From: an uncultured Bacteroidota bacterium
Lineage (GTDB): Bacteria; Bacteroidota; Bacteroidia; Bacteroidales; P3
Length of the DNA stretch: 64,000 nucleotides
Reading direction: 5' to 3'
Assembly (NCBI GenBank): GCA_902784865.1
Contig: CACZWL010000002.1
Location: 1 to 64,000 of the forward strand
Under the pieces are notes generated by a model. That model searched no databases and was not told the origin of the DNA. It was given only the letters and a program-made list of their open reading frames with translations. Of this stretch, positions 5,225 to 63,913 are shown in pieces. The first letter of the stretch is position 1. Every line of letters starts with the position of its first letter. Position numbers and translations under genes: made by a program.

Positions 5225-5277
5225 CAGTCTGATTTGAAGAAACAAAAATTTATTAACAATTTAAAAAACAGACAATT

Positions 5278-5841: not shown

Positions 5842-5874
5842 TAGCTCCGGGACTGAAGAAGATTGAAAATGGAG

Positions 5875-5912
5875 AAGTGGAAAGTGGACCCTCGGGGCCC
5901 GACTTTCCACTT
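5875..5912 (+). terminator. Hairpin between rpsP and rimM
   Basis: AAGTGGAAAGT (5875-5885) pairs perfectly with ACTTTCCACTT (5902-5912) around a GC-rich loop. Only a short T-rich stretch follows. It is probably an attenuator that lowers rimM expression relative to rpsP. Confidence 0.5.
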
Positions 5913-5941
5913 TCGTTTATGCACCACAAGGATTACACGAC

Positions 5942-6475
5942 ATGGAAATAAAAGACTGCTACAACCTGGGACGCATCACCAAGGCCTGGGGCTACAAAGG
6001 CCAGGTGGTGATTTTTCTGGACGTGGACACGCCCGAGGACTATGCCGGACTCGACTCGGCTTTCGTCGAGGTGAAGGGCAAACTGATACCCTACTTCTTC
6101 CGCATCGACAGCCTGAACGGTAACAAAGCGGTGATAACCTTCGAAGACCTCGCCGCCGAGCAGGCGCTGGCGCTTGTCGGACACGAACTCTACCTCCCGC
6201 TCACCTTGCTGCCTAAGCTCGAAGGCAACAAGTTCTACTTCCATGAAGTGGTGGGTTTCAGGGTGATAGACGAGCAGTGGGGCGACATCGGCACGCTGCA
6301 GACGGTCATCGACTACCCCGCGCAGGCCCTCTTCCAAGTGATGAAAAACGGCGTCGAGATACTCATCCCGGTCATCGACGAAGTCATAAAGAAGGTCGAC
6401 CGCGAGCAAAAAACACTCTTCATAGCGGCACCTAACGGGCTGATTGATTTGTATCTTGGCGATATCAACAAATAG
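5942..6475 (+). CDS. rimM: 16S rRNA processing protein RimM
   Basis: RimM assists maturation of the 30S head by binding S19 and is needed for efficient 16S rRNA processing. The 177-residue product has an N-terminal RimM beta-barrel (LGRITKAWGYKGQVVI near residues 9-25) and a C-terminal PRC-barrel (VVGFRVIDEQWGDIG and IPVIDEVIKKVD). Length and domain order are normal. It lies 100 bp after rpsP behind a hairpin, and is probably read from the rpsP promoter. Confidence 0.95.
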   Translation: MEIKDCYNLGRITKAWGYKGQVVIFLDVDTPEDYAGLDSAFVEVKGKLIPYFFRIDSLNGNKAVITFEDLAAEQALALVGHELYLPLTLLPKLEGNKFYFHEVVGFRVIDEQWGDIGTLQTVIDYPAQALFQVMKNGVEILIPVIDEVIKKVDREQKTLFIAAPNGLIDLYLGDINK

Positions 6476-6487
6476 TGTTGAAATGTT

Positions 6488-6521
6488 TTTGCCGTCAATA
6501 GCGGAAAAATGCCTACTTTTG
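6488..6521 (+). promoter_or_regulatory. Promoter of the DksA/TraR-family gene
   Basis: The -33 TTTG (6488-6491) and -7 TACTTTTG (6514-6521) are separated by 22 nt, just past the rimM stop. The -7 box sits so close to the ATG at 6534 that the next in-frame ATG at 6549 is a credible start. Confidence 0.6.
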
Positions 6522-6548
6522 TCGCCGAAAACAATGACACAGACCACA

Positions 6549-6950
6549 ATGAAAACACAGAGCGATACCCAGGAAAAGACCCGCTACTCAGAGGCCGAGC
6601 TGCAAGAGTTCAAAGAATTGATATTGAACAAAATAGCCAAGGCAGAGAAAGATCTTGACATGCTGCAGCAGGCCGTAGCCGGAAGCGAGAACGACGTCAG
6701 CGACACCTCGCCCACCTTCAAGTCACTCGAAGAGGGGAGCAACACCCTGCTGAAGGAAGAGAATCAGAAACTTGCCGTGCGCCAGCAGAAGTTCATCCGC
6801 GACCTGAAAGCCGCCCTTGTGCGCATCGAGAACGGCACCTACGGCATCTGCCAGGCCACGGGCAAGCTCATCCCCAAAGAGCGCCTGATGATTGTGCCCC
6901 ACGCCACGATGACCGTCGAAGCCAAAGAGGCCAGCAAGCGCCGCCGTTGA
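6549..6950 (+). CDS. DksA/TraR-family regulator, zinc-finger-less
   Basis: DksA/TraR proteins bind the RNA polymerase secondary channel and modulate transcription, often together with ppGpp. The product (133 residues from 6549, 138 from 6534) has the N-terminal coiled coil (YSEAELQEFKELILNKIAKA) and the C-terminal GTYGICQATGKLIPKERL segment typical of the family. Only one of the four zinc-ligand cysteines remains, as is common in Bacteroidota members. Start choice between 6534 and 6549 is uncertain. It has its own promoter and a terminator after it. Confidence 0.88.
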   Translation: MKTQSDTQEKTRYSEAELQEFKELILNKIAKAEKDLDMLQQAVAGSENDVSDTSPTFKSLEEGSNTLLKEENQKLAVRQQKFIRDLKAALVRIENGTYGICQATGKLIPKERLMIVPHATMTVEAKEASKRRR

Positions 6951-6998
6951 GTCCACAGGAAAGAATTTCACATAACCCATAAACTTTGACAATGCGAA

Positions 6999-7036
6999 GG
7001 ATTCTCCTTTATCAAAAGGGGAGTCCCTTTTTTTCT
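6999..7036 (+). terminator. Terminator after the DksA/TraR-family gene
   Basis: GGATTCTCCTTT pairs with AAAGGGGAGTCC across a TATCA loop, and a T-rich run (CTTTTTTTCTTT) follows. This is a classic intrinsic terminator. Confidence 0.85.
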
Positions 7037-7097
7037 TTCACCCCCTGCAGGAGCCTCCTTTGCAGCAGGGGCGGATGATTAAGAGCCGCAAAAAAGT

Positions 7098-7370
7098 TGC
7101 ACGATGCCGATTTGTTAATAGATGTTAAACGGGGGGACGTTTAACATCTATTAACAAGTCGTTTTTCAGACACTTTTCATATACCTACCATATACCTACC
7201 ATTCACCTACCAGATGGCCTAAAAGACTGAAAAATAGTGTTTTATGTAAAATGTACTGAACTGCAGATGCTTATGGGGGTAAAAAGTCGCGTTTTCCTCC
7301 TTCTGGACCCCTCCGCGTAACTCTTGAAAACAGGTCGCCAACTTTCCTAATAAATGTTAAATTGACGGTT
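7098..7370. repeat. Long intergenic repeat element, copy 1
   Basis: The element begins with an inverted repeat: GATTTGTTAATAGATGTTAA plus AC at 7109-7130, against its complement at 7139-7160 with one mismatch. Direct repeats of ACCTACCA (about 7180-7212), the segment CACCTACCAGATGG, and a terminal block AACTTTCCTAATAAATGTTA near 7340-7361 follow. The same blocks in the same order occur at 15500-15775. It contains no gene. Confidence 0.8.
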
Positions 7371-7475
7371 TTTAAGTAAAATTGCTCCTGTTTTTGAAAA
7401 GTATCGTCGGTGCGCCAGAGGTGCTCTGTTGGGAGTGTGTTTCTGGTGTGTTTTTTCTGTGGGGTAAGATTTTTT

Positions 7476-7506
7476 TTTGCCGTATAATTTTTATTTCGTA
7501 CTTTTG
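7476..7506 (+). promoter_or_regulatory. Promoter of the cobalamin-riboswitch unit
   Basis: The -33 TTTG (7476-7479), 19-nt spacer and -7 TACTTTTG (7499-7506) sit directly ahead of the riboswitch aptamer, so the transcript would begin with it. Confidence 0.8.
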
Positions 7507-7510
7507 CAGC

Positions 7511-7680
7511 CGATTTCGGTCGCCCGAAGGGGCGTGAAAAGGGAAGCCGGTGAGAGTCCGGCGCAGTCCCGCTGCTGTAAGCTCGAGAGTTGAGACCCAA
7601 TGTGTTAAGCCACTGTGTGCCGCCACAGGCGCATGGGAAGGCATGGGTCGGAAGAGCAAGCCAGAAGACCTGCCAAAATC
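7511..7680 (+). ncRNA. Cobalamin (B12) riboswitch
   Basis: The aptamer shows the hallmarks of the family: an opening TTTCGGTCGCCCGAAGGGGC hairpin, the conserved AAAAGGGAAGCCGGTGAGAG and the AGTCCCGCTGCTGTAA block. It ends in a B12 box, GCCAGAAGACCTGCC, at 7660-7674. It lies about 150 nt upstream of the ATG of the giant secreted protein. Adenosylcobalamin or another cobalamin would be expected to repress expression. A GC hairpin near 7730-7750 could belong to the expression platform. Confidence 0.9.
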
Positions 7681-7830
7681 ATTAAAAACGGAATGCTTTT
7701 CGAGGAAAAGGCACCCGCTCGACGAAAAAGTCTGCGCCGCAAGGCGGGACAATTGTCGTTTGTGTGTTTTTCCCCGTTTGGCAAGTGGAAGAAAAAACTA
7801 ACTTAAAAACAACTAAAAACACATTAAACG

Positions 7831-10800
7831 ATGAGAAAGATTCTCAAAACAATCTGGATGCTGGTGCTGCTTGTGCCAGCGATGATGCAAGCCCAGACCA
7901 CCGTCGTGGTGGCCGAGGGCACGGCAAGCCCCAACGTACCCCCGTTCTACCTCAACAACGCCAAGTATGCCCAGTGGTCGCAGAGCATCTACCCCGCCGC
8001 AGAGCTTACCGAGCTTGTCGGGCAGAAGCTTGCTGCTTTCACCTACCACACCAGTATCTCCACCTTCACCCCCGACCCCGGCGAGTGGACTATCATGCTG
8101 GGAATCACCACTAAAAACAACCTTGCCTACGGCAAGGACAACACGGCGTGCACCACGGTGTTCGAGGGCCGTCCGACCTTCGACATCTCCACGGGCAACA
8201 TGACCTTCACCTTCGACACCCCGTTTGAGTACAACGGCGGCAACCTGCTGGTATGGTTCGACCATCCGGCAGGCACCACGACGGCCGCGAACGCCTGCAC
8301 GTGGCAGGCCAAGGTGGCCACCGACGCCAGCCGCCGCGCGTACAATAGCGGGTATACCAGCCAGTACAACACCGAGGGCAGCCTCGCAGCCTACCTGCCC
8401 ACCATCTGGGTGACCACTGCCCCGTCCGCCCAGGAACCCGAGGCTGTGCCTGTCAGCCTGAACAACTACATCTTCTCGCCCACGCAGGAGGACTATGTGC
8501 CGCTAAGCCAGCGTGGTGGGACCGAATGGAGCGCCGACGAGCAGACGGCGGGCATCGTGGCCATCGACATGCCGTTCGATTTCCCTTTCGGCACCCAGAC
8601 CATCGCCCAAGGCACACAGCTCTACGTCTCGGCCTCGAAAGGCCTGGCCCTGACACAGAGCGGCTACATTTTCGCCCCGATGTCGCTCATCGCCGATGGC
8701 GCAGCCTACACGGGCTTCGGCGACAACACGATTCTTACCTATATGACCTCCGATTCGGTCGTCGTCGAATGGAACGCCCTGCAGCACGGCACCGGCACAT
8801 CCGCCAACACCTACACCTTCCAGCTTGTGCTGGAGGCCAACGGCAACATCACCTTCCACTACAACAACTGCGTGGTCAACAGCTACAAGGAAATCGTGCA
8901 AGGCATCTATTGCAGCACTGCGGAGAACACCTGCCTCAACGGCTACAGCTATGCCGACCCTTCGCGCAACCATGCCGGCCTCAGCACCCGTTCCATCTCC
9001 ACAAGCAGCAAACCCCGCGACGGACAGGTCTACCGCTTCACGCGCCCTGACTGCCATGTCATTGCCGTCAGCAGCAGCGAGCCCTGGGTCGAGGAATTCA
9101 ACGACACATGGGTCGACAACCGCCTGCCCGGAGCCTGCTGGGAGAGCGTGCAGTCGCACAACGGCAGCAGCACCAACAACCACTGGAACAGAAGCTACAG
9201 CGACCATGCCGGTAGCGGCTACAGCGCCTACATGTCCGGCACCTACAGCTGGAACGGATCGTGGAACGCCATCGACCTCATCACCCCCGTGTTCGATATC
9301 CCCGAGGCCGGAGCCTACACCGTGGGCTTCTGGATGAAGCGCGGTACCGGCTCGACTGTCAATGCCCGGACGGGCGTGCGCCTCTTCGCAAGCACCTCCA
9401 CCGACACCGCCGACGGGCAGATGTTGCTCTTTGCCCCCTACTTCACCACCGTGAACCCCACCGTGGCTGAGGCTGGCTGGTACTATTTCGAAGCCACCAT
9501 CCCCATGTCCGGCCACCTCTATTTTATCTTCCGTGGCCTCGACTACAGCAACACGCGCCTCGACATCGACGGCATCCGCGTGGCTGCCGTCCCCAGCTGC
9601 GACAACCCTGACGACCTGGCATGGGATGCCGCCAACCAGCTGGTCACCTGGACGGCAGGCAACGCCACCCAGTGGCAGGTGCGCGACGGCGATACCTACA
9701 GCATCGTCAGTACTCCCTCCTACACCAACTCCGCCTGGCTTTCGGCCACCACATATAATATATATGTGCGCTCCATCTGCGGCGCCGGCGACACCCTCGA
9801 GTGGCGCGGCCCCTTGAGCTTCACCACGCCCTGCGACCCCCTCGTCCTCGGCACCGACGACAGCCTGGTCTTCAACTTCGACAACCTCACCACTTCCGGC
9901 ACCATCCCCGCCTGCTGGACGGTGAACCACATCAGTGGCCCCGGCAGCCAGCTCTGGGGTTCCTACAGCGTCACAGGCGCCCATAGCGGCAACCGCGTGA
10001 TGCGTCTGCCCGACATGAATGCCACCACCATCACCAACCTCGTCACATCGCAAATCAACATCCCCGCCGCCGGCAGTCATGAGGTGCGCCTCTGGATCAT
10101 GCGCGGCAACGGCACCAAGCAGCACGAGGGTGTCAAAGTGTGGGCCAACACCACGCCCGACACCATCGGCGGCACCCCCCTCTTCCACGCCCGCCGCTGC
10201 ATCACGGCCGAGCCTGTGGTGAGCAGCGATGGCTGGTACGAGTACCGCGGCACCATACCCATGGCCGGTAACCTCTACATCGTCCTGCAGGGCATCAGCG
10301 AATATGGCCAGGAAATCAGGATTGACGACCTCGTCATTGCTCCCGCCACTGCCACCCCTGCCGAGGCCGACGACCCCGCCGATGCCATACAGTACTGGGT
10401 GGGCACCGGCGAGAACTCTGCCACATTCACCCTCCACTTCAACAATGCCGCCACCCCCACCTCCTTCGTCTGGGGCTACCGTTGGGACGACCCCTACGAC
10501 GACTATACCGTCGGCATGATGATGGAAGAGATTGCGCAGGCCGACTCGCGCGTGACGTTCGACGGCCTCGAGTATGGCTTCCTGACCTACTATACCTACA
10601 ACGACGGCACCTATAACCTCACCGCCCCCACGGGCAGCAACTATGCGGGATTCATCGTGAACGACGAGGTGGCCAACTATGGTGCCAACGCCCAGCCCCT
10701 GGCCGACGGCGACGCCATTGCCTGGCTGGATGCCGACTACGGCTTCTTCTCGGGCGATATCAACCTGGGGCAGACCGACACCGTCTATGTCACCAACCCT

Positions 10801-13800
10801 GGCGGCGGCGACCAGCCCGGTACAGACACCCCGGATGACCCCGACGACCCCGACGATCCCGTCGACCCTGTGGTCGATACCCTCTGCTCCACTGTCTATA
10901 CGCTTCCCTACACCATCGACTTCTCCGGCTACACCCTCTCGCCAGGCAGCAGGGGCTACGAGGCGGCGGCTCCGCTGCCCGACTGCTGGTCCGTGCTCGG
11001 CAACGGCCGCTTCACGGCGGGCTACGACACCACGGCCTCCGCAAGCATATACTTCTCGGGCATCGGCACCTCCAACAGCACCAACAACTACGGATGCGTC
11101 ACGCCGGGCGACCCCTACTTCACCTTCGTGGCCTACGGTGGCTACGATGGCACCTATGCCACCTATGTCGATAACGTGGCCAAGTACGGCACCCGCAAAT
11201 ACGCCATCCTGCCCACCTTCGACCATCCGCTTTCCGAGGTGGTCCTCACCTTCGACCACCGCACCTCGGCCCGCACCGGCGCCGAACTCCGTGTGGGCTA
11301 TATCGTCGACGACACGGCTTCCTTTGTCGCCATCGACACCTTCGTCACCGACTTCCGCATCCTGCACCACGACACCATCGACTACTCGGCCCACTCTGCC
11401 GCCATCCCTGCCAATGCCCGCATGGCCATGCTCTGGCTCTCGACCGAGGTCATCCACATGGGCGACGCACCGGGCAACTACTTCTGCGGCATCGACAACC
11501 TGAAGGTCGAGCTGGCTTCCACGTCAGACACCCCCGACCCCGTTGCCGACGCTACTATCGCCGCCAGCGACATCCTCTACTGGGTGGGCTCGGGAAGCGA
11601 TTCCGCCATCTTCGTCATCTCCGACGGTGTGAACACCCGCGCCTGGGGTTACCTCTTCGACGAGGACGACGCTCCCACTGCCCTCACCATGGCTTCGGCC
11701 ATCGATGCCGCCGACCCCCGACTGGCCTATTCTATGGATTGGACCACCTATGAGATGGGCTTCGTCTATCGCGAGTACCCTGTCTCGTTCTCCATCGCCG
11801 ACACCCGCTTCAAAGTCGACGGCGTGCTGGCCGACGCTGGGGATGAGCTCTCCGATGTCGATGTCGAAAATGGCATGGTCGTCATGGTATGCAGCAGCAC
11901 CGCCGCCGTCTGGTCGGCACCCATCGTCCCCGCTACCGTGAAGCACATGCCGCGTAACAGCACCATTGCTGCCAGCGACATCCTCTACTGGGTGGGTGCC
12001 GGCGCCAACGAGGCCGTCGTGGCGGTCAACTGGGGCGTCCCCGACACTGCCCTGGCCTGGGGCGTCCGCTTCGACGGCACCCTCACCATCGGCGGAGCCA
12101 TCGATGCCATAGCCAATGCCGACCCGCGCGTCTCTACCGACGCAGCACGTTCCACCATCAACTTCAGCGACGGCACCGTCAGCCTCAGCTTCCAGCCCGC
12201 TCCGGTCAGCTATATGCAGTTCATCATCGGCAACAACAGCAACGTCAACGTCAACAGCCCCCTCGCCAATGGCGACCAGCTGAAGATTGGCGAATCGGCC
12301 TACGGCGAGGGCTACGACTCCACCGAGTACGGCGGCATGTGGTTCCCCATGGGCGTGGTGTGGAGCACCGAGATTCACCCCGTCAGCGATCCCAATGACA
12401 CTCCCGATACGCCCTCCCTTGTCGACGCCACTGTCAACTTCGCCGACATTACCTGCTGGGCAGGCTCTGGCCCCGACAGCACAGCCCTCATCGTCAGCTT
12501 CGCCAACCCCGACACTGCCTTTGCGTGGGGTGTGCTTATCAATGCACAGACTACAGGCGAGGCTATGCTCAATGCAGTCTTGGCCGTCGATACCAACCTG
12601 TCTATCACCGGCCATCCCGACTGGGGTGACGGTCAGATACGTTACCGCCTCTCCGATGGAACCGTCATTAGCCGCACAGGCAGCGAATGGATATTCAACA
12701 TCGATGGTGTTGACTCGTGGGGCGACGACCTTGTCTGGGCCGGTAGCGTCTTCAAATTCGGCGACCGTGCCTCGGGTATCCTGACCGGAGAGAGCGCTTT
12801 CCAGCGTGTCTGGACGGCCGTACCCACTATCGTCGATTTCTGTCTCGATGAGCCGGCGCCTGCTGTGGAAGACGCCACCATCGCCGCCAGCGACATCCTC
12901 TACTGGGTGGGTTCGGGCAGCAACCAGGTGGTCATGGCCGTCAATTGGGCCGATACAGCACTCGCCTGGGGCTTCCGCTTCAACGACGCGGTGACTACTG
13001 CCACCGTCATGATGGACAGCATCGCCGCAGCCGACCCCCGCTTCAGCTACATCATGGGCATGTGGGGCGTGGGCGACATACGCTACATCGACACCGCCGC
13101 CGGCATGACCGACACCCTCGGTATCGCCCCGGGCAACTACTGGTGGAGCCTCCTCAACGGCCAAGGCGCCATGGGTATGGGCACTCCGCTGCACGACGGC
13201 GACTTCTTCAAGTGGGGTGACCTCAGTTCGGCCACTGTCACCGACAGCGTCATGGGCGAGTATGGTATGGAATACTCCTACGTCTGGACGCGCACCATCG
13301 TTCCTGTCAGCGTGCCCGACACCGTCGGCAACAGCCCCGCGCCGGGTCCCGGCCCCAACCCCGGCCATGGCCCCTTCTGCGGCGCCGTGGGCACCGAGGG
13401 CTGCAATGCCATAGCAGCCGACAGCAGCGCCATCGTGGCGTGGGCTACGGGTGTAGTGATTGAGCGCGGCCCGCAGATGCTCGGCGGCAATCCCGACTCC
13501 CTGGCTACCCATGGCTCGGATACCAGCGCCCTCGGCCCGGCAACCCTTAACACGTTGGCTGCCATCAGCCTCGGCGACGGCGGCACCGCCACCCTCACCT
13601 TCGACCGCCCCATCGCCAACGGCGACGGCCCCGACTTCGCCGTCTTCGAGAATTCCTTCGGCGACAACTTCCTCGAGCTGGCCTTCGTCGAGGTGAGCTC
13701 CGACGGCCAGCACTTCGTCCGCTTCCCCGCCACCTCGCTCACCCAGACCGAGACCCAGACCTCGGGCATCGGCTCTACCGACCCCACCTTCATCAACAAC

Positions 13801-54356: not shown

Positions 54357-54600
54357 ACCTTTTTTTTCGTTTTTTTTCGCCCCCAGAATCCCCCGTGCCC
54401 CCAACCCGTAATTCCCCCTCGCGCCGCGGCCCTACTCAACCCCGGCCAAGGCTATACTCGCCGATTTGAACGCCATACACCCGCTTACATCCCTTCACCC
54501 CATAACGCCAACCCACCACCCTGCATTTTTTATTTCCCTGATTCTCATTATATTTAAAAGAACCTTGTCAAAAAAAGGCATCGGTATTGAAAAAAATGTG

Positions 54601-54608
54601 TATCTTTG
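54601..54608 (+). promoter_or_regulatory. -7 box upstream of the RiPP-like operon, site 1
   Basis: TATCTTTG followed by CA, as in the strongest promoters of this window. The -33 region is weak. A transcript from here would meet the hairpin at 54817-54851 before reaching the precursor gene. Confidence 0.55.
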
Positions 54609-54737
54609 CACCCGAAATCGACGCGAGTTTTCGTCGAGATGCAATGAAAAGCATTTGTATTGGTCCGCTAACTAAAGTTCGCCAACTTCAAAACACAAGG
54701 ACTGTCATACTGGTGCCTTTTGCCTTTGCCATATTGT

Positions 54738-54745
54738 TATCTTTG
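54738..54745 (+). promoter_or_regulatory. -7 box upstream of the RiPP-like operon, site 2
   Basis: A second TATCTTTG about 230 bp before the precursor ATG, with TTTG at 54719-54722 at a short 15-nt spacing. Less convincing than a full consensus. Confidence 0.4.
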
Positions 54746-54816
54746 CATATATGGGGGCATAGGATAAGGTTCAAAGTTGGTTTTACTTGTGTAAGGCGTT
54801 TGGCGATGCCTGGTTA

Positions 54817-54851
54817 GCGTAGAACAAACAACGCGAGTTCTATGCTTTTTT
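54817..54851 (+). terminator. Terminator or attenuator ahead of the precursor gene
   Basis: GCGTAGAAC (54817-54825) pairs with GTTCTATGC (54837-54845, one G-T pair), followed by TTTTTT. It could end a leader transcript starting near 54610 and so control the operon. It could also be the end of an older upstream gene. Confidence 0.65.
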
Positions 54852-54974
54852 AATATATGTATAACACGCCAACCGCCGGGAACTCAGGGATGGCACACGG
54901 GTTGCTGGTATTCGAGGATGTAGTGTTTAACAAAATAGTAAAAGCGGAATCCGAAAAGCTTAAAAAGAGTAGGA

Positions 54975-55115
54975 ATGAAACTTATAAAATGTTGCATTAT
55001 GGAAGTCAAATTTCATGTTGTAAAAACAAGCGTTGAAGAAAATGGAATCTTCACCTATGCTGATTTCAGCAAGAACGGTCCTTGTGACATGTGTTGGGGC
55101 GATTTGAGCCTTTAA
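54975..55115 (+). CDS. Putative RiPP precursor peptide, 46 residues
   Basis: A short frame begins at ATG 54975 (MKLIKCCIMEVKFHVVKTSV, AGGA-like purines just before it) with a second ATG at 54999 that would give 38 residues. It ends GPCDMCWGDLSL, a tail rich in Cys, Asp and Trp, which are plausible targets for radical-SAM modification. The stop is 9 nt before a strong hairpin, and the SPASM radical-SAM maturase follows 68 nt later. That is the usual layout of a leader-plus-core peptide made in excess over its enzymes. I recognise no known precursor family, and no GG motif is present. An overlapping frame (54890-55036) is an alternative. Confidence 0.6.
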   Translation: MKLIKCCIMEVKFHVVKTSVEENGIFTYADFSKNGPCDMCWGDLSL

Positions 55116-55124
55116 CAAGCAGTA

Positions 55125-55157
55125 GGGATGCGCATCAAGTTGCGCATCCCTTATTTT
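55125..55157 (+). terminator. Attenuator hairpin between precursor and maturase
   Basis: GGGATGCGCA (55125-55134) pairs perfectly with TGCGCATCCC (55141-55150), followed by TTATTTT. It should terminate most transcripts after the peptide gene and let a fraction read into the enzyme genes. Confidence 0.8.
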
Positions 55158-55183
55158 GAATTCAATGGTATTAATTATCATAT

Positions 55184-56494
55184 ATGTACTGGTCTAAATA
55201 TAATATATTGACCCATTCTGAGAAGTTCGGTTATCTACTGTTTAACACTATATCTATGGCGTTCATTCAGATTGACGAAAAAGACATAGATGTATGGGAT
55301 GCCTTAAAGCAATCTCCCGAGAGCTATCAGGAATTTAAAAATTGGGAATACCTAGTAAAGGCACGAGTCCTGGTAGAGCAGCCGGAAGATGACCTGAACA
55401 TATATCTCGTCGATGTATTGAAAAACCGGTATAATAGTGCTGATGTTGCCTTATCGATACTGCCTACTCGTGGTTGCAACTTTGGGTGTATTTACTGCTA
55501 CGAGAAAGACCGTCCAATGAAGCACATGGATGAGCGTACGGAGAGGAGTATTATTGCTTTTCTACGGGCAAACAGCAATATGAAACGCCTCAGTGTTGTA
55601 TGGTACGGAGGTGAGCCACTCATCAATTTTCAAAGTATAGAACGTCTGTCGAAGGAATTTCTCCATATGGGGATATCATACTCTGCAAAAATGGTTACTA
55701 ACGGCTATCTACTTACACCTGAGGTCGCAGACAAGATAGAGTCGTTAGCTATTCGGAATATCCAGATAACCCTTGACGGACCAGAACCGATTCACAATCA
55801 ACGACGGATGCTATTAGGGGGACAACCAACCTATAGAACCATTATGGACAACCTGAAGTATTTGTTAGGTGTTAACAAAACTGTAACCATAGACATCCGA
55901 ACAAATGTTGATCGCCGCAATATGGAGGAATACGACACCTTCTACCAAAACTTTAAGGCAGAAATCGTTGACTCTCGTGTTAACTTGTATCCTGGCTTCG
56001 TTTCAGATTTGCTCTCCTCGGAATGTGTTTCGGCAGAACATAATATCAGTGCGGGAGGTTATAAAGCCCAGTTTGTGCTTGATGTCTACAACAAATACGG
56101 TATCGAAATCAAGTCTTTCCTACCCAAATATCGTCACCATAGTTGTGTTGCCAGTAAGTATTGGGCTTTTGTGATTGGACCAGAAGGGGAAATATATAAA
56201 TGTTGGAGAATGGTGGGCAACAAGCATCAAGAGATAGGCAATGTGAACAACTTAAAGATCGACATGGCCAAGTTCTCACGTTACATTACCGGGGCCGATT
56301 ATACACTTGATCCCAAATGTCTTGCCTGCGAGTTCATCACTCTTTGTGGCGGTGGCTGTCCGCTGGTCAGGATGCGCAATAAATATGAAGGGCTGACGAT
56401 GAACCACTGTTGCCCGGAGAAGAGCCACATGGAGCGACTCATGGAGATGCACTATGACATGTATTTGAAGCAAAAAACTGCAAAACACGGATGA
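55184..56494 (+). CDS. Radical SAM/SPASM peptide maturase 1
   Basis: The 436-residue product has a leading region of about 90 residues that could bind a leader peptide, then the radical-SAM core with C98-C102-C105 (RGCNFGCIYCYE) and WYGGEPLINF. A SPASM domain follows with C340 and a cluster C379, C382, C388, C392, C409, C410 (CLACEFITLCGGGCPLVRMR). SPASM enzymes of this layout (anSME-, PqqE-, sactisynthase-like) install thioether or carbon-carbon links in peptides. It follows the putative precursor and its hairpin, and overlaps the next gene by 4 nt. The DNA is AT-richer than the window average. Confidence 0.9.
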   Translation: MYWSKYNILTHSEKFGYLLFNTISMAFIQIDEKDIDVWDALKQSPESYQEFKNWEYLVKARVLVEQPEDDLNIYLVDVLKNRYNSADVALSILPTRGCNFGCIYCYEKDRPMKHMDERTERSIIAFLRANSNMKRLSVVWYGGEPLINFQSIERLSKEFLHMGISYSAKMVTNGYLLTPEVADKIESLAIRNIQITLDGPEPIHNQRRMLLGGQPTYRTIMDNLKYLLGVNKTVTIDIRTNVDRRNMEEYDTFYQNFKAEIVDSRVNLYPGFVSDLLSSECVSAEHNISAGGYKAQFVLDVYNKYGIEIKSFLPKYRHHSCVASKYWAFVIGPEGEIYKCWRMVGNKHQEIGNVNNLKIDMAKFSRYITGADYTLDPKCLACEFITLCGGGCPLVRMRNKYEGLTMNHCCPEKSHMERLMEMHYDMYLKQKTAKHG

Positions 56495-57792
56495 AGGTCT
56501 ATGTCGAGACATACGGTTGCAGAATGAATATCTGCGACAGCGAGGTGCTGGTAAGCATCCTCGTAGCATCTGGCTATGAGTACACTCCTCAATTGGCCGA
56601 GGCCAACGTGGTGGTGCTGAACTGCTGCTCGGTGCGCGAGGTGGGGCATGCTAAGACCTATCAGCGCATCGGCGAACTCGATAGTTGTCTTAGAGACGAT
56701 GTCGTCTTGTGTATCGCCGGATGTATGTCGACCCAGCTGCAAAACGACCTTTTCGATACCTACCCTCGCGTAAATATAATTATCGAGCCCACGGCCTATC
56801 GATTGTTACCCCAGGCTCTTGTCGGCATCGGAAGAGGCCATTTGTATGTCAGGAATGGGCGGCAGAGCGAGGTCTATGATGATGTATTGCCCACAAGGGT
56901 GTTAGAAGACAGCGTCACTGCTGCCGTTACCATTATGAAGGGGTGCGACCAGTATTGCAGCTACTGTATCGAGCCCTATACCCGAGGCGAGCGCACCAAC
57001 CGTAGTTATGAGGCCATCATGGACGAGGTCGCCGAGGTGAGGCATGCCGGCTATCGTGAGATTACCCTTTTCGGACATATCGTCGACCTCTGGGAAGGCG
57101 AAAAACGGGGTGCCCGCATTGGCTTTGCCCAACTGCTCGACGATGTCGCGAAAGCCTGCCCGGAGCAGCGTGTCAAGTATATCTCGTCGCATCCGCTGAC
57201 CTACACCGACGAGATTGTGCAAGCCGTCAAGGCCAACGACAACATTATGCGGGTGGTACACCTCCCTGTGCAATCTGGTTCCGACAAAGTGCTCCGCAAC
57301 ATGAACAGACGTTATACTGCCCAGCAGTTTCTACAGAGAGTCGCCGACATCAGAAACGAGATCCCCGATATGCAGATTATCACCGACATCATGGTGGGTT
57401 TCCCTGGCGAAGATGATGATAACTTCCAGCAGACGCTCAACTTGTTGCGGCTGTTGCAGTGTACCAATGCCAATGTGTTTGCATTTTCCATGCGCAAGGG
57501 AACTGCAGCCTACAAACATTTTGATGACAACGTTTCTGATGCAATAAAAAAAGAGAGAACAGAAATGGCCAGAAGCCTCGTCGGCCAGATTCGTTCTGTA
57601 GAGCAACAGAAATTAATCGGCACAACCCAGATTGTCATCTTGGAATCAGAGGGCAATGACTTCTGGTATGGTCGTGACTTGTATCATCGCACCATTGCGG
57701 TGCTCCCGACACAAGAAATGGACATAGGACAGGAATTGTCTGTCAAGGTCAGCGACCTGAAAGGCCAACAACTAATAGGCATAGCTCTATGA
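56491..57792 (+). CDS. MiaB-like radical SAM methylthiotransferase
   Basis: The 433-residue product has the methylthiotransferase N-terminal domain with C10 (ETYGCRMN), C45/C46 (LNCCSVRE) and C78 (IAGCMS) for the auxiliary cluster, and the radical-SAM motif C152-C156-C159 (KGCDQYCSYCIEPYTRGER). It has HLPVQSGSDKVLRNMNRRYT, MVGFPGEDDDNF and a weak C-terminal TRAM-like barrel. Classical MiaB methylthiolates tRNA A37. Here the gene is locked between peptide-maturase genes by 4-nt overlaps on both sides, so a peptide substrate is more likely. A housekeeping tRNA role cannot be excluded from sequence. Confidence 0.88.
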   Translation: MKVYVETYGCRMNICDSEVLVSILVASGYEYTPQLAEANVVVLNCCSVREVGHAKTYQRIGELDSCLRDDVVLCIAGCMSTQLQNDLFDTYPRVNIIIEPTAYRLLPQALVGIGRGHLYVRNGRQSEVYDDVLPTRVLEDSVTAAVTIMKGCDQYCSYCIEPYTRGERTNRSYEAIMDEVAEVRHAGYREITLFGHIVDLWEGEKRGARIGFAQLLDDVAKACPEQRVKYISSHPLTYTDEIVQAVKANDNIMRVVHLPVQSGSDKVLRNMNRRYTAQQFLQRVADIRNEIPDMQIITDIMVGFPGEDDDNFQQTLNLLRLLQCTNANVFAFSMRKGTAAYKHFDDNVSDAIKKERTEMARSLVGQIRSVEQQKLIGTTQIVILESEGNDFWYGRDLYHRTIAVLPTQEMDIGQELSVKVSDLKGQQLIGIAL

Positions 57793-59069
57793 GAATACAC
57801 ATTGAGAACATCGGTTGTTTCAAGAACCTAGTCGACTCTGAACGGCTATATCACGCACTCGAGACGGCAGGATTCCAAGTGACGTTCGGCCCGTTCGAAC
57901 ACGATGCCGACATCGCCATCATCAACACCTGTGGTTTCATTGGCGATGCAGAAGAAGACTCGGAATCGCTCGTGCTGCAATATGCCGACAGAAAGCGCGA
58001 AGGCTACATCGCTCAACTATGGGTCATGGGCTGCTATGGACAGAAATACGGCAAAGCACTGAGAAACAAGATTCCAGCCATCGATCGTATCTTTGGCAAC
58101 TTCGACTGGCAGAACATTCTCCATGTATTGGGTCATGAATACCCTGCAAGCATACAGCGCCACATCACCACCCCCTCTCACTATGCCTATCTGAAAATAT
58201 CCGAAGGATGCAACCGCCCCTGTGCCTACTGTATCAAGCCCATTCTGAACGGCCGTCTCTCCTCCATCCCCATCGACACCCTTTTGGAAGAAGTAAGGTG
58301 GATGGTGAGCCAAGGGGTTAGAGAGTTGCAAGTCGTTGCCCAGAACCTGACTGACTATGGATTGGACCTGTATGGCGAAAATCGCGTTGCCGAGCTGGTG
58401 GCAAGGATAGCTGACGTGCCTGGGGTCGACTGGGTTCGGCTGCACTATGCCTATCCTTTAGGCTTCCCGAAAGAGCTGCTGAAAGTCATTCGCGAACACG
58501 AGAATGTTTGCAACTATCTTGACATGGCTTTGCAGCATTGCAACACCGAAATCCTGAAACGCATGCGGCGCGGTGGCTCTAAAGAATATCTCACCGACCT
58601 GCTGGCCGAAATACGCGACAGCGTTCCTGGCATCTATCTGCGAACAACCGTGATGACGGGCTTTCCTGGCGAAACAGTCGAGATGTTCGACGAACTGTGC
58701 CAGTTTGTCGTGGAGCAACAGTTCGAGCGCATGGGTGTGTTTCGCTATTCGGCCCAGAAAGGCTCTTACAGCGACAAGCACTATGTTGACGACATAACCG
58801 ACGAAGAGAAAACGCGAAGGGCACTGCATCTGATGAAGATTCAGAAAGATCGCTATCTTTTGCTAAACCAGTCACTTCTCGGCACCACACAGCGAGTGAT
58901 GGTCGATGAGTATGTCGATGGGAAATATCACTGCCGTACCGAGCACAGCACCCCGATAGCCGACCCGAAAGTCATTGTAAATAGCAGCCACCCTCTGACC
59001 GTAGGCTCGTTCTGCCAGGTGGTTCTTACTGACACGCTTGGGAAAGACATCGCAGGAAAGGCCGTATAA
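57789..59069 (+). CDS. RimO-like radical SAM methylthiotransferase
   Basis: The 426-residue product has auxiliary-cluster cysteines C10 (ENIGCFKN), C48 (INTCGFIGDAEEDS) and C82 (VMGCYGQKY), radical-SAM cysteines C141-C145-C148 (SEGCNRPCAYCIKPILNGR), DMALQHCNTEILKRMRRG, MTGFPGE, and a C-terminal TRAM domain. The INTCGFI and ISEGCNRPC blocks are typical of RimO, which methylthiolates the beta-carbon of an aspartate in ribosomal protein S12. The putative precursor tail contains two Asp residues. It overlaps the previous gene by 4 nt and precedes the second SPASM enzyme by 19 nt. It could be the genomic RimO displaced into this operon, but the setting argues for a specialised copy. Confidence 0.88.
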   Translation: MRIHIENIGCFKNLVDSERLYHALETAGFQVTFGPFEHDADIAIINTCGFIGDAEEDSESLVLQYADRKREGYIAQLWVMGCYGQKYGKALRNKIPAIDRIFGNFDWQNILHVLGHEYPASIQRHITTPSHYAYLKISEGCNRPCAYCIKPILNGRLSSIPIDTLLEEVRWMVSQGVRELQVVAQNLTDYGLDLYGENRVAELVARIADVPGVDWVRLHYAYPLGFPKELLKVIREHENVCNYLDMALQHCNTEILKRMRRGGSKEYLTDLLAEIRDSVPGIYLRTTVMTGFPGETVEMFDELCQFVVEQQFERMGVFRYSAQKGSYSDKHYVDDITDEEKTRRALHLMKIQKDRYLLLNQSLLGTTQRVMVDEYVDGKYHCRTEHSTPIADPKVIVNSSHPLTVGSFCQVVLTDTLGKDIAGKAV

Positions 59070-59088
59070 CTTCACCTGACCAATACCT

Positions 59089-60366
59089 ATGAATATCTAT
59101 TCTGAACACAACATATCGATCATCGACGACCCGCGGTCCGACAAGAAAATCGTCTATTTGCCATTGACAGGCTATGCTCAGCTGATGGCTGCTACAGAAG
59201 TCAGCGAGCTAACCTCACAACTGCATGGCCGCTCCGAGAATGCATCAACAGCTGTGGATGCAGTCATGGTAAGACTGCACCGCCGAGACAAGAACGTCAA
59301 TCTCACCCAACACACCGTCGAAGGTTTGAGAAGCCTGATGCTGCTGCCCAACAACAAGTGTAATTTCAAGTGTTCTTATTGCTACTCTGCCAATGGCAGA
59401 ACCAACGAAGAAATATCGCCACGCCTGCTAGAGGCCGGGCTAAACTATTTCCTGAATTCCAATCGAGCCAAGGGCGAGCGGCTGTCGATATCTGTGCTTG
59501 GCGGAGGCGAGCCACTGCTTTCATGGAACATACTCAGGCCGTCGCTCGAAAAGGCCATGGCGCTTATCGAGAAGCGCAGCGCCCCATGCCCCATATCCTT
59601 AGTGACAAACGGTTCCGTGTGCCGCGACAGCATCATCCAGTTTTGTCTGGACCACCACATCAGTCTAAGCGTGTCGTTCGACATTCTTGAGGATGTGCAA
59701 AACGCCCAGCGGGGATGTTGGCAGGAAGTGTCTGCCAACATAAATCGCTTTGCCGAAGCCGGAATCGATGTGGCTCTGAACACCGTTATCAGCAGCGATA
59801 ACGTCAGAAGAATGACCGAGATGATAGCGCATCTGGTCATCTATCATCCGCTGGTCAGAAAGGTGTCGTTCAAAACACTGATTACAAAGGACTATTTCCA
59901 CACCATCGACGACCGCAAAGCCTATTATCAGGTATTTATTACCGAATTTTTCAAGGCAAAAGCCGCCGCCGACGAGTATGGGATATGGCTCACCTGTTCG
60001 TATATGAATACCTGTCTCTGCCTGTCCGACCGCTATTGTCCGGGCAAGTTTGTCATCACCTCCGAAGGCGACATCTCGACTTGTCACATCGTGGGATCGA
60101 AACGTGACGAGCTGTATAGCGACTTTGTCTTTGGTCGCATCGACGAGATGACGGGTGAAGTGCATGTCGACGAGACGAAACTGCGACAGATTCTCTCATA
60201 CGACGTGACCAAGAGTGGCAAATGCCAAGACTGCCCAGCCCGATGGCATTGCGCCGGTGGGTGCTATGCCGACCATTTCCACCTGAACGAGGCAGAACAC
60301 GAGGCTTATTGCGAATCCATGAGGTCGTTCCTGGCCTCTTACCTTATCTACAAGTACAAGTTATGA
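59089..60366 (+). CDS. Radical SAM/SPASM peptide maturase 2
   Basis: The 425-residue product has an N-terminal region of about 80 residues, radical-SAM cysteines C91-C95-C98 (NNKCNFKCSYCYSANGR), VLGGGEPLLSWN, and a SPASM cluster with C379, C382, C388, C392 and C408 (CQDCPARWHCAGGCYADHFH). It is only distantly similar to maturase 1, although the SPASM cysteines lie at nearly the same positions. Two different SPASM enzymes in one operon suggest two sequential modifications or two sites on the peptide. Its stop overlaps the next start (ATGA). Confidence 0.9.
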   Translation: MNIYSEHNISIIDDPRSDKKIVYLPLTGYAQLMAATEVSELTSQLHGRSENASTAVDAVMVRLHRRDKNVNLTQHTVEGLRSLMLLPNNKCNFKCSYCYSANGRTNEEISPRLLEAGLNYFLNSNRAKGERLSISVLGGGEPLLSWNILRPSLEKAMALIEKRSAPCPISLVTNGSVCRDSIIQFCLDHHISLSVSFDILEDVQNAQRGCWQEVSANINRFAEAGIDVALNTVISSDNVRRMTEMIAHLVIYHPLVRKVSFKTLITKDYFHTIDDRKAYYQVFITEFFKAKAAADEYGIWLTCSYMNTCLCLSDRYCPGKFVITSEGDISTCHIVGSKRDELYSDFVFGRIDEMTGEVHVDETKLRQILSYDVTKSGKCQDCPARWHCAGGCYADHFHLNEAEHEAYCESMRSFLASYLIYKYKL

Positions 60367-61601
60367 ATAACGTATTTATCAAAAGTAACGGCTGTGCAGT
60401 CTTGATGCACGAGACAGAACGCATAGCAAAATATTTCACTGCTAACGGCTGGCTTTTGGCTGAATCACCGGCCGAGGCTGATATTGTGGTCATGACCTGC
60501 TGCGGTGTTACCAACAACGAGGAGGATCAGGCCATCGGCATGATTGGCGAGTTGGAACAGCAGCGCCGCCCAGACAGCCGTTTCTTCGTTTCGGGCTGTA
60601 TGCCCGCATTTGCTGCCGACCGCGTGACAGTGGCATCGCCAGCGGCCGTCATCTTGAAATACAGCGAGCTCGACGCACTCGATGGTGTCATCGGTGCCGA
60701 GAGGCCTTTTCATACGGTTCATTACAACACAGGCCCACTGTTGAAGAAATGCGGAGAAGAGGCCATCCAGACCGACGACGACCTGCGGCTAATGCGCGAA
60801 ATAGACGAGACATATCTCTCTCACGAGTGTGAGCGCGCCTGGGAGTTCTCTACATTGCGCAAGTATATGTGGCAAGACGGACGCACCTATCAAATCAAGG
60901 TGTCTTATGGTTGTCCTGGACATTGCAGCTACTGCGCCACCAAGCTGGGCATTGGCGACTTCAGGAGCATCGACATGGGGCTTGTCATCGACCAGTTTCG
61001 TGAGGGGTGGAGGAAGGGATTCACCCGATTCCTGCTCATCGGTGACGAAATAGGCGCATATGGCCGCGACATCGGCACGTCGCTTATCGACCTGCTGCAA
61101 CAGATGTACGACCTGTCTGAAGGTCGTGCCTCAGTTGCTATACGCTATATCCATCCCGACATTTTCGTGAAACAGTATGAGCAACTGTCGTTCTTCTTTG
61201 CCAACGGCTTTGTCAGCTACTTCTGCTGTGCCATCCAGTCGGGAAGTCCCGAGGTACTGAAGCGCATGAACCGCAATGCCCAGTTAGAGCCTTTCATCCG
61301 TTGCATGGAAAATCTCAATGCCAAAGGTTACCCTGTCAACAAGCACACGCAGATTATCGTGGGCTTCCCCGGAGAAACTGCCGAGGACTTCCTGCTGACG
61401 ATGGATGCCCTGCGTCGCTGTCAGTTCGACCATATCAACATCAATCTGTACAGCCCCCGCAGGCACACTGTAGCCTGGAGCATGACCGACGATGTGTCGC
61501 TAGATGAGAAAGCCTTCAGGGGCGCACTCGTCCGCCACATCATGATGCTCCACAAAAAAGCCCTTATGTACGATGCCATCAAGAAAACAATAGAAGCATA
61601 A
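60363..61601 (+). CDS. Third methylthiotransferase-like radical SAM protein, no TRAM
   Basis: The product (412 residues from ATG 60363, chosen because it overlaps the upstream stop) has an N-terminal auxiliary-cluster set C11 (KSNGCAVLM), C46/C47 (MTCCGVTNNEEDQ) and C79 (VSGCMPAF), and radical-SAM cysteines C184-C188-C191 (SYGCPGHCSYCATKLGIG). It also has CAIQSGSPEVLKRMNRNAQ and IVGFPGETAEDF. It ends soon after the core and lacks the RNA/protein-binding TRAM domain. It also has an extra segment of about 50 residues (120-170) before the radical-SAM motif. It is divergent from both MiaB and RimO, and a peptide-specific role is inferred from the operon. Confidence 0.85.
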   Translation: MNNVFIKSNGCAVLMHETERIAKYFTANGWLLAESPAEADIVVMTCCGVTNNEEDQAIGMIGELEQQRRPDSRFFVSGCMPAFAADRVTVASPAAVILKYSELDALDGVIGAERPFHTVHYNTGPLLKKCGEEAIQTDDDLRLMREIDETYLSHECERAWEFSTLRKYMWQDGRTYQIKVSYGCPGHCSYCATKLGIGDFRSIDMGLVIDQFREGWRKGFTRFLLIGDEIGAYGRDIGTSLIDLLQQMYDLSEGRASVAIRYIHPDIFVKQYEQLSFFFANGFVSYFCCAIQSGSPEVLKRMNRNAQLEPFIRCMENLNAKGYPVNKHTQIIVGFPGETAEDFLLTMDALRRCQFDHININLYSPRRHTVAWSMTDDVSLDEKAFRGALVRHIMMLHKKALMYDAIKKTIEA

Positions 61602-62467
61602 TGGATTCCAACTTAGTAAATATTACAGATTTATCTGATTCATTGAGTCAGGTCATTCCTATCATTAGGTCGATAGAGGAGCATAGTGCCCCCGCACCTT
61701 TTACGTATATCAATATCATCATCTCACTTCTTGCGGCCTTTTTTGGCTTTGGATCATTCCTGTATGCCAAAAAGACTGCCGACAATGTCAGTAGATTGTC
61801 GAGAAAAACTCAGATTGACTTATGTAAGGATCTGTTACGAGATTGTCTTCAAATAGTTGTCTACCAACTTGTTGCTCTCAAAAGAATAGAGAAGGATGGC
61901 TGGGTCATTACAGAAGATGTGTTGAAGAATATCAATTACTGGCCATCAGAAATCTACTTCAAACAGGATGTGTACAATAGCCAAAGTAAGATATACAAGA
62001 TGATATACAACCTCAAGCGAAGAATGCAAGAGTATAACAACAAGATACTTGACTGTCAACGGGATATTTTCAAAGGAAAAAGAATTGATAAAGAGAGACT
62101 TAGGGAGCTTTATGAAAACAATTGGATGACTCTGTATAAGGCATATGCCATATACGAAAAGCTGGATAGGAAAGTAAAGTCTGGAGCAGCAACAGAACAA
62201 ATCAAAGATATATATAACGAATTGCACAAAGCATTCGAGAAGAACCTAGTCTCAAGGAAAGATACCATATCATTGGATGAGAATCGAAAAAGGACTTATA
62301 ATGAGATAATAGTCGAGCTATACAATAATCACAAACACAAACAAAAAGACGGCCCTTGGAGCGATATACGTGCTATAGAAATGAGTATAGTGGATGTACT
62401 CAGCCAAGATGCAGCTCTTTACGAGGAAACTATGCGTATCGAAGAAGGCCTGCAATCAGCAACATAG
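61601..62467 (+). CDS. Orphan membrane-anchored helical protein
   Basis: I do not recognise a family. The 288-residue product has an N-terminal stretch outside the membrane, one or one-and-a-half membrane helices at about 36-56 (INIIISLLAAFFGFGSFLYA), and a long lysine-rich helical or coiled-coil region (60-250; KRRMQEYNNKILDCQRDIFK, YEKLDRKVKSGAATEQIKDI). The start codon shares a base with the upstream stop, so it is coupled to the radical-SAM genes. The sequence is markedly AT-rich. A scaffold, sensor, immunity or export-coupling role is possible, but nothing decides between them. Confidence 0.75.
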   Translation: MDSNLVNITDLSDSLSQVIPIIRSIEEHSAPAPFTYINIIISLLAAFFGFGSFLYAKKTADNVSRLSRKTQIDLCKDLLRDCLQIVVYQLVALKRIEKDGWVITEDVLKNINYWPSEIYFKQDVYNSQSKIYKMIYNLKRRMQEYNNKILDCQRDIFKGKRIDKERLRELYENNWMTLYKAYAIYEKLDRKVKSGAATEQIKDIYNELHKAFEKNLVSRKDTISLDENRKRTYNEIIVELYNNHKHKQKDGPWSDIRAIEMSIVDVLSQDAALYEETMRIEEGLQSAT

Positions 62468-62475
62468 CCCCCACT

Positions 62476-63480
62476 GTGCGCAAGCGTATTTACATAGAAA
62501 CCAACATTGCTGAAGGCCTGCGCAACGAGGTGTTTCGGTATGACTATACCCCCTCACTAAACAAGAGTATGACAAGAGATGAGTACGGATTCTGGCATGC
62601 TACTGGTAGGGAGATTGTGTTGGACGACAGTATCACTAACCAGATATTCTACAGGAAAGGGTGGAAAGAGGTGGCGCAGAACAATGTGCAGGATGCCGGA
62701 GATTCCATATACATCAAAGAGGATGTCAACCAGTACGGGCTATCGGTCATCATTGCGTCGCCATCTATAGATCGTCCATTGCCAGCGGTTGTCGTTTGCT
62801 TGGGCGGACCGCAGACTCCTGTTCCCAACATCTATGAGGAAGACTCTGTCTACCAAATACTGATGGCCAATGGTTTCGCCCTCATCATTCCGTTGCGTCG
62901 AGGTGTCGTAGGCATCTCAAGGGAATGGCAAGCGGCATTAGACGGCCATTACGGCGACTATGACATCCAAGACACGACAGAAGCCGTAGCGTTTGCCGTG
63001 GACCATCACCCCGACATCATTTGCCCCAACCGCGTATGTCTCTATGGCAGCAGCTACGGCGGCTATGTGGCTCTGCTCATGGCTGGAAAAAGCAATGCCG
63101 ACAGGCGCTTCAAGGCTGTCGTTGCTCACTGTGGTGTCTACGACCTGGCCACCTATCCTTGGCATAGCCAAGGCATTCCCGAAGAAACCATGCTGACCTA
63201 TGGCCACACGACAAATCTAAAAGAATATGCAGCGAAGGTAATAGAAATCTCCCCCAAGACTTATGTCAACAAATGGTGTGTTCCGATGCTCCTGATTCAT
63301 CACCTGAACGATACAAGCTCTTGGTTTGGCCAGTCGATAGCAGCTTATAACGATGCTCTCCGTCACGGAAAACAGACCGACCTGATGATAGTTCCCGGTC
63401 CACATACTTACGATATAAAAAACCATAACATTTTATTCCATCAGATTATATCATTTTTCTCAGAGCAAATGGTGGTATAG
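62476..63480 (+). CDS. S9-type alpha/beta-hydrolase (prolyl oligopeptidase-like)
   Basis: The frame is open from an ATG at 62356, but the most natural start is GTG 62476, 9 nt after the previous stop, giving 334 residues. An S9/acyl-aminoacyl-peptidase-like hydrolase fold carries the nucleophile Ser193 in YGSSYGGYVALLMAG, Asp279 in IHHLNDTSSW and His310 in VPGPHTYD, a complete triad. PAVVVCLGGPQTPVPN and RRGVVGISREW form the upstream core. No signal peptide is seen. Being the last gene of the operon, it is a candidate for removing the leader peptide or degrading misfolded product. The usual beta-propeller of prolyl oligopeptidases is absent. Confidence 0.8.
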   Translation: MRKRIYIETNIAEGLRNEVFRYDYTPSLNKSMTRDEYGFWHATGREIVLDDSITNQIFYRKGWKEVAQNNVQDAGDSIYIKEDVNQYGLSVIIASPSIDRPLPAVVVCLGGPQTPVPNIYEEDSVYQILMANGFALIIPLRRGVVGISREWQAALDGHYGDYDIQDTTEAVAFAVDHHPDIICPNRVCLYGSSYGGYVALLMAGKSNADRRFKAVVAHCGVYDLATYPWHSQGIPEETMLTYGHTTNLKEYAAKVIEISPKTYVNKWCVPMLLIHHLNDTSSWFGQSIAAYNDALRHGKQTDLMIVPGPHTYDIKNHNILFHQIISFFSEQMVV

Positions 63481-63913
63481 ACAGGCATTGTGTTCCTGGA
63501 AGCCATGTTGAAATACACGGCAAGAAGGGGGAAGTAAACGGTGTCATAGGCAAGATTCCCATTCATCTCTTAAAAAGCAAAGATGGCGAGGGTGTTATAG
63601 AACTGTCAAATTTGTCCGAGGCAATGAGCAGCACACCTGCCGCATGAGACAGTAAGTGCGGGATTTCTGCAGGATGGACACGATGGTGGATGTGGCCAAG
63701 CAGGTACATATACACCGAATTGCTCTTATGGCAAAGCTTCGAGTACGCTCTGGTTACGTTCTGTGTGTGTGTGGGGGGGGGCGTCCATTTCTTAAAATAG
63801 TATAGGACTCATTTGCCGAATGAAATTAATTAAATGTTTTGATAATCGGAAACATAGTGCTAATTTAAGAGGCTAGATTCCAAACGGATAGTAGACCAAT
63901 AAGGCTGTAGGTA
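63481..63913 (+). other. Region downstream of the operon, possible gene remnant
   Basis: No complete gene. A start-less frame runs from about 63458 to 63646 (CVPGSHVEIHGKKGEVNGV, then IELSNLSEAMSSTPAA), out of frame with the hydrolase gene. A second short frame from 63674 to 63799 contains a run of GT repeats and nine G residues. Both could be decayed pieces of one gene. I cannot name a family. Confidence 0.35.

Follow-up and report, generated by a model that had tools for sequence, protein, structure and literature searches.

A candidate peptide-modifying pathway with two SPASM enzymes and up to three methylthiotransferases in Bacteroidales

What would a peptide operon do with methylthiotransferases? 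The question is raised by a stretch of 64,000 nucleotides (the window) from an uncultured Bacteroidota bacterium (Bacteroidales; P3), positions 1 to 64,000 of contig CACZWL010000002.1 in assembly GCA_902784865.1, where a short peptide gene is followed by genes for two radical SAM enzymes of the SPASM type, S1 and S2, and for three methylthiotransferases, M1 to M3. Of the five methylthiotransferase families, two have been studied biochemically, and their substrates are tRNA and the ribosomal protein S12, according to excerpts of a 2017 review (PMC5352715). The reading preferred here, at a probability of roughly 0.7, is a pathway to a ribosomally synthesized and post-translationally modified peptide (RiPP) in which, to judge from sequence, the SPASM enzymes and the extra methylthiotransferases would modify the core of the peptide and peptidases would trim its leader. 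Counted in its favor are the recurrence of the same gene set with one peptide in nine loci, the purifying selection on its core, the intact cysteines of the enzymes, the status of M1 to M3 as extra copies, a TRAM domain below cut-off in most M1 and in the M3 scanned, peptidase genes in most loci, and the absence of Gly-Gly from the precursors and of a transporter from the operon genes examined.

The operon is compact and spans 54941-63480 of the window, with a degenerate peptidase gene at its 3' edge:

54941..54975, + strand: DUF805b RNA motif (RF02914, annotated as cis-regulatory), located in the peptide gene's 5' leader; 53.9 bits against a gathering score of 35.6
54999..55115, + strand: precursor peptide gene, 38 aa; conserved in 9/9 loci, silent changes only in the core
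55124..55151, + strand: terminator- or attenuator-like hairpin between the peptide gene and S1; z -6.16
55184..56494, + strand: S1, radical SAM/SPASM peptide maturase-like; profile matches and aligned cysteines
56491..57792, + strand: M1, MiaB-like methylthiotransferase with a degenerate TRAM; TIGR00089, 369.8 bits
57789..59069, + strand: M2, RimO-like methylthiotransferase; RimO model, 369.2 bits
59089..60366, + strand: S2, second radical SAM/SPASM enzyme; best match the PapB ranthipeptide maturase model, below cut-off
60363..61601, + strand: M3, third methylthiotransferase-like enzyme; UPF0004 and radical SAM, no TRAM match
61601..62467, + strand: putative membrane/coiled-coil protein, as first described from sequence; no family above cut-off
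62476..63480, + strand: S9-type hydrolase; PF00326, 9.4e-29, GTG start by comparison with relatives
63432..63614, + strand: M42 aminopeptidase gene remnant, partly overlapped by the 3' end of S9; 61 codons aligned, 62% identity to the M42 of locus L020

An initial sequence-only reading of this DNA had described seven tightly packed genes; they are confirmed in place, between 55184 and 63480, and profile searches support the families given for all but the membrane/coiled-coil protein. Overlaps of 4 nt join S1 to M1, M1 to M2, and S2 to M3; M3 overlaps the membrane protein gene by 1 nt, and a 19-nt gap separates M2 from S2. CxxxCxxC is indeed retained in all five radical SAM proteins (S1, S2, M1, M2, M3), and the block is AT-richer than its neighborhood, as had been claimed, with a guanine-cytosine (GC) fraction of 0.483 vs 0.603 in positions 1-53800 of the window.

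A scan of species genomes with an S1 alignment, a method that needs exact short peptide matches, returned 14 loci. S1 is 68-90% identical in eight of these (L020-L027); the other six (L028-L033) were dropped as relatives, at 23-35% identity and without a methylthiotransferase match. Together with the window this gives nine loci, among which L025 and L026 are almost identical, M1 of L022 runs off its contig, and the contig of L026 ends about 2.4 kb after S2. The co-occurrence of the five radical SAM genes with an alignable short frame, proposed as a check by the sequence-only reading, is largely borne out: the peptide, S1, and M1 are present in 9/9 loci, M2 and S2 in all eight uncut loci, and M3 in six of the eight.

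The peptide is encoded directly upstream of S1 in the window and in L020-L027. Translation from the ATG at 54999, a start with counterparts in the relatives, gives the 38-aa sequence MEVKFHVVKTSVEENGIFTYADFSKNGPCDMCWGDLSL. The frame itself had been recognized earlier, and this part of the claim stands; its proposed start at 54975 is rejected, as it adds an unconserved extension in the same frame where the relatives have no start. Precursors are 38-39 aa long, and their leaders diverge widely around a conserved F-x-[VLI]-[VI] stretch, while the C-terminal ten residues are invariant: all nine end in CDMCWGDLSL, with two invariant Cys and two invariant Asp. Across the nine sequences, the ten core codons contain eight variable bases, and every change is silent. 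Silent-only changes in the core next to diverging leaders point to selection on the peptide and not to chance; the core is under strong purifying selection at the protein level. A short, genetically linked precursor is thus conserved alongside its maturases in every locus, and an outcome named in the first reading as one that would refute it, related clusters without a conserved short peptide, did not appear.

Expression of the peptide is framed by two RNA features. A DUF805b motif, missed by the sequence-only reading, lies directly 5' of the peptide in 9/9 loci (45.1-53.9 bits, gathering threshold 35.6), and an orphan cis-RNA is thereby connected with a peptide operon. The whole genome holds four DUF805b matches (L034-L037; G000 C2, C15, C10, C13), one above the gathering score; the open reading frame (ORF) starts shortly downstream of the three sub-threshold copies look unrelated, which means that the motif also occurs outside this pathway. 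No paper on DUF805b was found in the openly licensed literature searched. The terminator-like hairpin noted earlier after the peptide follows its stop in all nine loci (z -2.2 to -6.2; -6.16 in the window and -2.18 to -5.76 in the other eight), with differing stem sequences, which is what a partial terminator separating the precursor gene from the enzyme genes should look like. Of these two elements at the head of the operon, the hairpin would probably keep the output of peptide above that of the enzymes.

Profile searches identify S1 and S2 as radical SAM proteins with SPASM-type maturase matches. The best NCBIfam match of S1 is TIGR04463 (4e-64, 217 bits, below the cut-off of 525), and that of S2 is the PapB model NF047865, whose cut-off of 340 is missed by both S1 (136 bits) and S2 (90.6 bits). 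The radical SAM and SPASM-type cysteines, the latter recognized by a spacing that we take to be that of SPASM domains, are invariant in nine S1 and eight S2 sequences, as in intact maturases. Both profiles have as their best Protein Data Bank (PDB) match 5wgg, an entry titled 'Radical SAM domain protein' that is presumably CteB. The proximity of S2 to PapB and of both enzymes to 5wgg fits thioether formation from Cys, at scores that do not allow a reaction to be assigned. By analogy with the SPASM family, the likeliest task of S1 and S2 would be to cross-link side chains of the core, through Cys or otherwise. Many RiPP pathways, though not all, bind the leader through an RRE domain. The N-terminal region of S1, which has no Pfam match, probably recognizes the F-x-[VLI]-[VI] stretch of the leader.

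The three methylthiotransferases relate to their families unequally. M1 is of the MiaB/RimO type and falls short of the MiaB model TIGR01574 (348.1 bits, cut-off 355.3); M2 exceeds the RimO model TIGR01125 (369.2 vs 356.95), as do the M2 of L023, L024, and L025; M3 combines UPF0004 with radical SAM and misses the cut-off of the MtaB model TIGR01579 (170.3 bits, cut-off 357.05). Three N-terminal cysteines are invariant in M1 (positions 10/46/78, 8 sequences), M2 (10/48/82, 8), and M3 (11/46-47/79, 6); the cut M1 of L022 was excluded from alignments and tree. In the excerpts of PMC5352715, these N-terminal cysteines and CxxxCxxC are the two motifs that mark methylthiotransferases, and because both are kept, M1 to M3 look catalytically competent by sequence.

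They also do not look like the housekeeping set of the cell, a possibility that had been named at the outset as one that would undo the hypothesis. Elsewhere in the genome stand a MiaB (455.8 bits vs 355.3), a RimO at C2:80232 (481 bits vs 356.95), and an MtaB (367.3 bits vs 357.05), each above its family cut-off; these separate canonical copies rule out M1 to M3 as the sole MiaB, RimO, and MtaB and make them extra copies. By its score, C2:80232 is likelier than M2 to be the RimO, or S12 methylthiotransferase, of the cell. In a tree of 25 rows, M1 (91/99), M2 (91/83), and M3 (100/100) each form one group across loci, with M1 beside the cell's own MiaB (84/92) and M2 grouped with its own RimO (100/99); long branches leave the placement of M3 and MtaB uncertain.

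Two features bear on the substrate of these extra copies. The TRAM domain, at 15.3 bits in the window's M1 (cut-off 21), reaches the Pfam cut-off in one of the seven full-length M1 (L023) and in none of the four M3 scanned, and the cell's own MiaB passes; such a pattern would follow if these enzymes had given up tRNA as their substrate. The cell's own S12 reads GGRVKDLPGVRYH, with Asp at position 89, the residue numbered as the RimO target in the excerpts of PMC5352715, and the peptide core reads WGDLSL. The D-L pair common to the core (GDLS) and S12 (KDLP) is suggestive only. We infer that the methylthiotransferases act on the peptide: M2 would methylthiolate an Asp, the reaction that RimO carries out on S12, and M1, with M3 where present, would do so at one or more other core positions.

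By record and tree labels, the loci stem from Muribaculaceae, Bacteroidaceae (Mediterranea massiliensis, Bacteroides congonensis), and Prevotellaceae, and occurrence is sporadic. Three of 190 genomes of the family carry the set, the source genome included, and a fourth S1 match at 28% identity was left uncounted. Wider searches returned the source genome only: among 393 genomes of the order (an M3 search and an exact peptide pattern search), among 355 of the class, and, above 35% identity, among 395 of the phylum; the M3 search of the order and the class and phylum searches scored 4-5 candidates per genome and may have overlooked some copies. A scan of genome contigs with M3 alone gave no matches, and the viral contigs searched held no relative. 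Plasmids yielded 26 matching records, all below 60% identity (24.9-30.5% among the matches listed). Tyrosine integrases lie about 0.9 kb upstream in L022 and about 1.5 kb upstream in L023, which also carries a relaxase. Given the spread over three families and the nearby integrases, horizontal spread of the operon among Bacteroidales is likely, and the horizontal acquisition proposed from AT-richness gains support from the low GC, the sporadic occurrence, and these integrases.

The 3' genes may bear on the fate of the modified peptide. S9 is prolyl-oligopeptidase-like, most likely starts at GTG 62476 by sequence comparison, and begins with VRKRIYIE, in which no signal peptide is evident by eye. 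The M42 remnant at its 3' end (E 2e-21 against the L020 M42) had been missed by the first reading. Depending on the locus, S9, M42, or M18 peptidases would cut away the leader, so setting free the modified C-terminal part as a small peptide. The membrane protein gene is present in four of eight loci, two of them with weak relatives (L025/L026). No transporter or C39 peptidase transporter was found among the operon genes examined, the farther flanks being only partly scanned by family, and none of the nine precursors contains Gly-Gly. The lack of Gly-Gly and of a transporter, the peptidases without evident signal peptides, and the M42 peptidase of the ChrA cluster discussed below favor a small trimmed product, although it may still be secreted.

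Secretion is at the center of the alternative that survives best, an antimicrobial or signaling RiPP that would leave the cell through an unlinked exporter, with immunity provided by the membrane protein or the hydrolases. This role is compatible with the chemistry proposed above and fits the sporadic occurrence and the integrases near two loci; Bacteroidales RiPP clusters have been mined for bacteriocins (PMC10352776, in the part available). We nonetheless consider it unlikely, if worth keeping in view, given the absence of Gly-Gly and of an exporter among the operon genes examined and hydrolases that lack evident signal peptides by eye. An invariant core across hosts would also be unexpected for a toxin under diversifying selection.

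Several observations weigh against the proposed peptide modification and trimming. M2, which scores above the RimO cut-off and retains TRAM_2, may act on S12-like or other protein substrates, and the M1 of L025 exceeds the MiaB cut-off (377.3 vs 355.3). M1 of L027 is cut at 357 aa, and M3 is missing from L025/L026, so it is not essential in every version. The charge of the TRAM region, tried as a substrate test, is uninformative (net 0 in the cell's own MiaB, -4 to +2 in M1). The peptidases are inconstant, with S9 in 5/8 loci, a full-length M42 aminopeptidase in 4/8, and an M18 aminopeptidase in L023 only (1/8); none of the three was found in L025/L026.

The two model scores are what speaks for a pathway with SPASM chemistry alone, in which the methylthiotransferases would act on tRNA or a ribosomal protein, for instance shielding the producer's ribosome from its own product. 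Such a division of labor seems improbable in a genome that already has canonical MiaB, RimO, and MtaB, with TRAM absent from the four M3 scanned and below cut-off in six of seven full-length M1, and with the peptide, S1, M1, M2, and S2 staying together in every uncut locus. Equally doubtful is a product that binds metal or acts as a metallophore, in which CDMC and methylthio groups would supply the ligands. Two invariant Cys and two invariant Asp within ten residues would suit such a role, but no metal transporter or TonB receptor family was found among the operon genes scanned.

Returning to a RiPP modified by both kinds of enzyme, a more specific version can be put forward tentatively: a new RiPP class in which two SPASM enzymes would cross-link the core, repurposed tRNA/ribosome methylthiotransferases would modify up to three of its positions, and intracellular cleavage would leave an unvarying small molecule that acts like a cofactor, a metallophore, or a signal, the operon moving between Bacteroidales on mobile elements. 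It would be a new RiPP class rather than a new kind of system. If true, C-H methylthiolation would join RiPP chemistry, and the operon would illustrate the recruitment of enzymes of the RimO and MiaB types. The invariant ten-residue core and the presence of the operon in named strains (Mediterranea massiliensis, Bacteroides congonensis) make the proposal directly testable.

Among known systems, ranthipeptides (CteA/CteB, freyrasin/PapB) share the short precursor, a core that contains both Cys and Asp, and maturation by SPASM enzymes. Their core spacing is CX3D, whereas the core here has CWGD/CD; the S1 and S2 scores lie far below the family cut-offs, and here two SPASM enzymes are joined by up to three methylthiotransferases. 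Freyrasin carries Cys-Asp C-beta thioethers (excerpts of PMC8326336). RimO, MiaB, and MtaB resemble M1 to M3 in the three UPF0004 cysteines and CxxxCxxC, with M2 above the RimO cut-off and M1 beside the cell's own MiaB; M1 to M3 differ as extra copies inside a peptide operon, with TRAM mostly sub-cut-off in M1 and lacking in M3. The pathways of pyrroloquinoline quinone (PQQ) and mycofactocin (excerpts of PMC8326336) likewise have a radical SAM enzyme acting on a short precursor. In the PQQ pathway proteases and oxidases yield a small product. Both pathways use other enzymes than those here, and a cofactor role for the present product is only a candidate.

The Bacteroidales RiPPs with Gly-Gly (GG) leaders and PCAT transporters, which the available part of the survey PMC10352776 stresses, share a SPASM-type enzyme adjoining a short precursor; the operon here differs in having no Gly-Gly precursor and no C39 transporter among the genes examined. 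In the same available text, the words RimO, MiaB, and thiotransferase do not occur. The ChrA/ChrH/ChrI/ChrP (MNIO) cluster, as excerpted from PMC11002830, combines a small precursor, conserved in a C-terminal motif with two Cys (CPACGMG), with a thiomethyl-bearing product and an M42 peptidase; there an MNIO enzyme does the chemistry, and those excerpts name no radical SAM enzyme. In line with the first reading, no named RiPP class combining SPASM enzymes with methylthiotransferases turned up in the partly accessible, openly licensed literature searched, and a description elsewhere is possible.

More distant S1-like enzymes occur without methylthiotransferases. Two of the dropped loci, L028 and L029 from Prevotella, have an S1-like gene 34-35% identical to S1 with a shared MYWSKYN start, but differ in a GG-type leader and a C39-like transporter recognized by eye, with no methylthiotransferase match in about 21 kb. 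In both, positions 3877-11293 hold two S1-like SPASM enzymes and a GG-type precursor with a Cys-rich tail. Among the f136 genomes, 23 have S1-like enzymes at 31-35% identity (L039-L065); the 27 loci, scanned with flanks of at most about 1.5 kb on either side, gave no methylthiotransferase match and two weak peptide matches (E 0.009 in L039, E 0.005 in L064). These systems are probably another RiPP family. Some of the short frames beside their SPASM enzymes look like Nif11-type leaders by eye.

Three further observations concern the surroundings of the operon. An intergenic element of about 260 nt, at 54590-54850 of the window and 1830-2160 of L014, has a promoter-like start, TATCTTTGC, and a terminator-like end. 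The two copies share 198 of 258 aligned bases, the window copy matches no Rfam family above gathering score, and matches longer than 200 nt occur in 9/40 other genomes searched, some with two or more; the element is a candidate non-coding RNA or mobile repeat. In L020, three small ORFs of 119-180 aa (8247-9752) lie between the element and the peptide operon, and the two that were scanned have no Pfam match. Beside the operon of Bacteroides congonensis (L024, 6205-9714), JAB-domain and ThiF-domain genes stand in a row with two further genes, an arrangement that resembles a ubiquitin-like conjugation operon.

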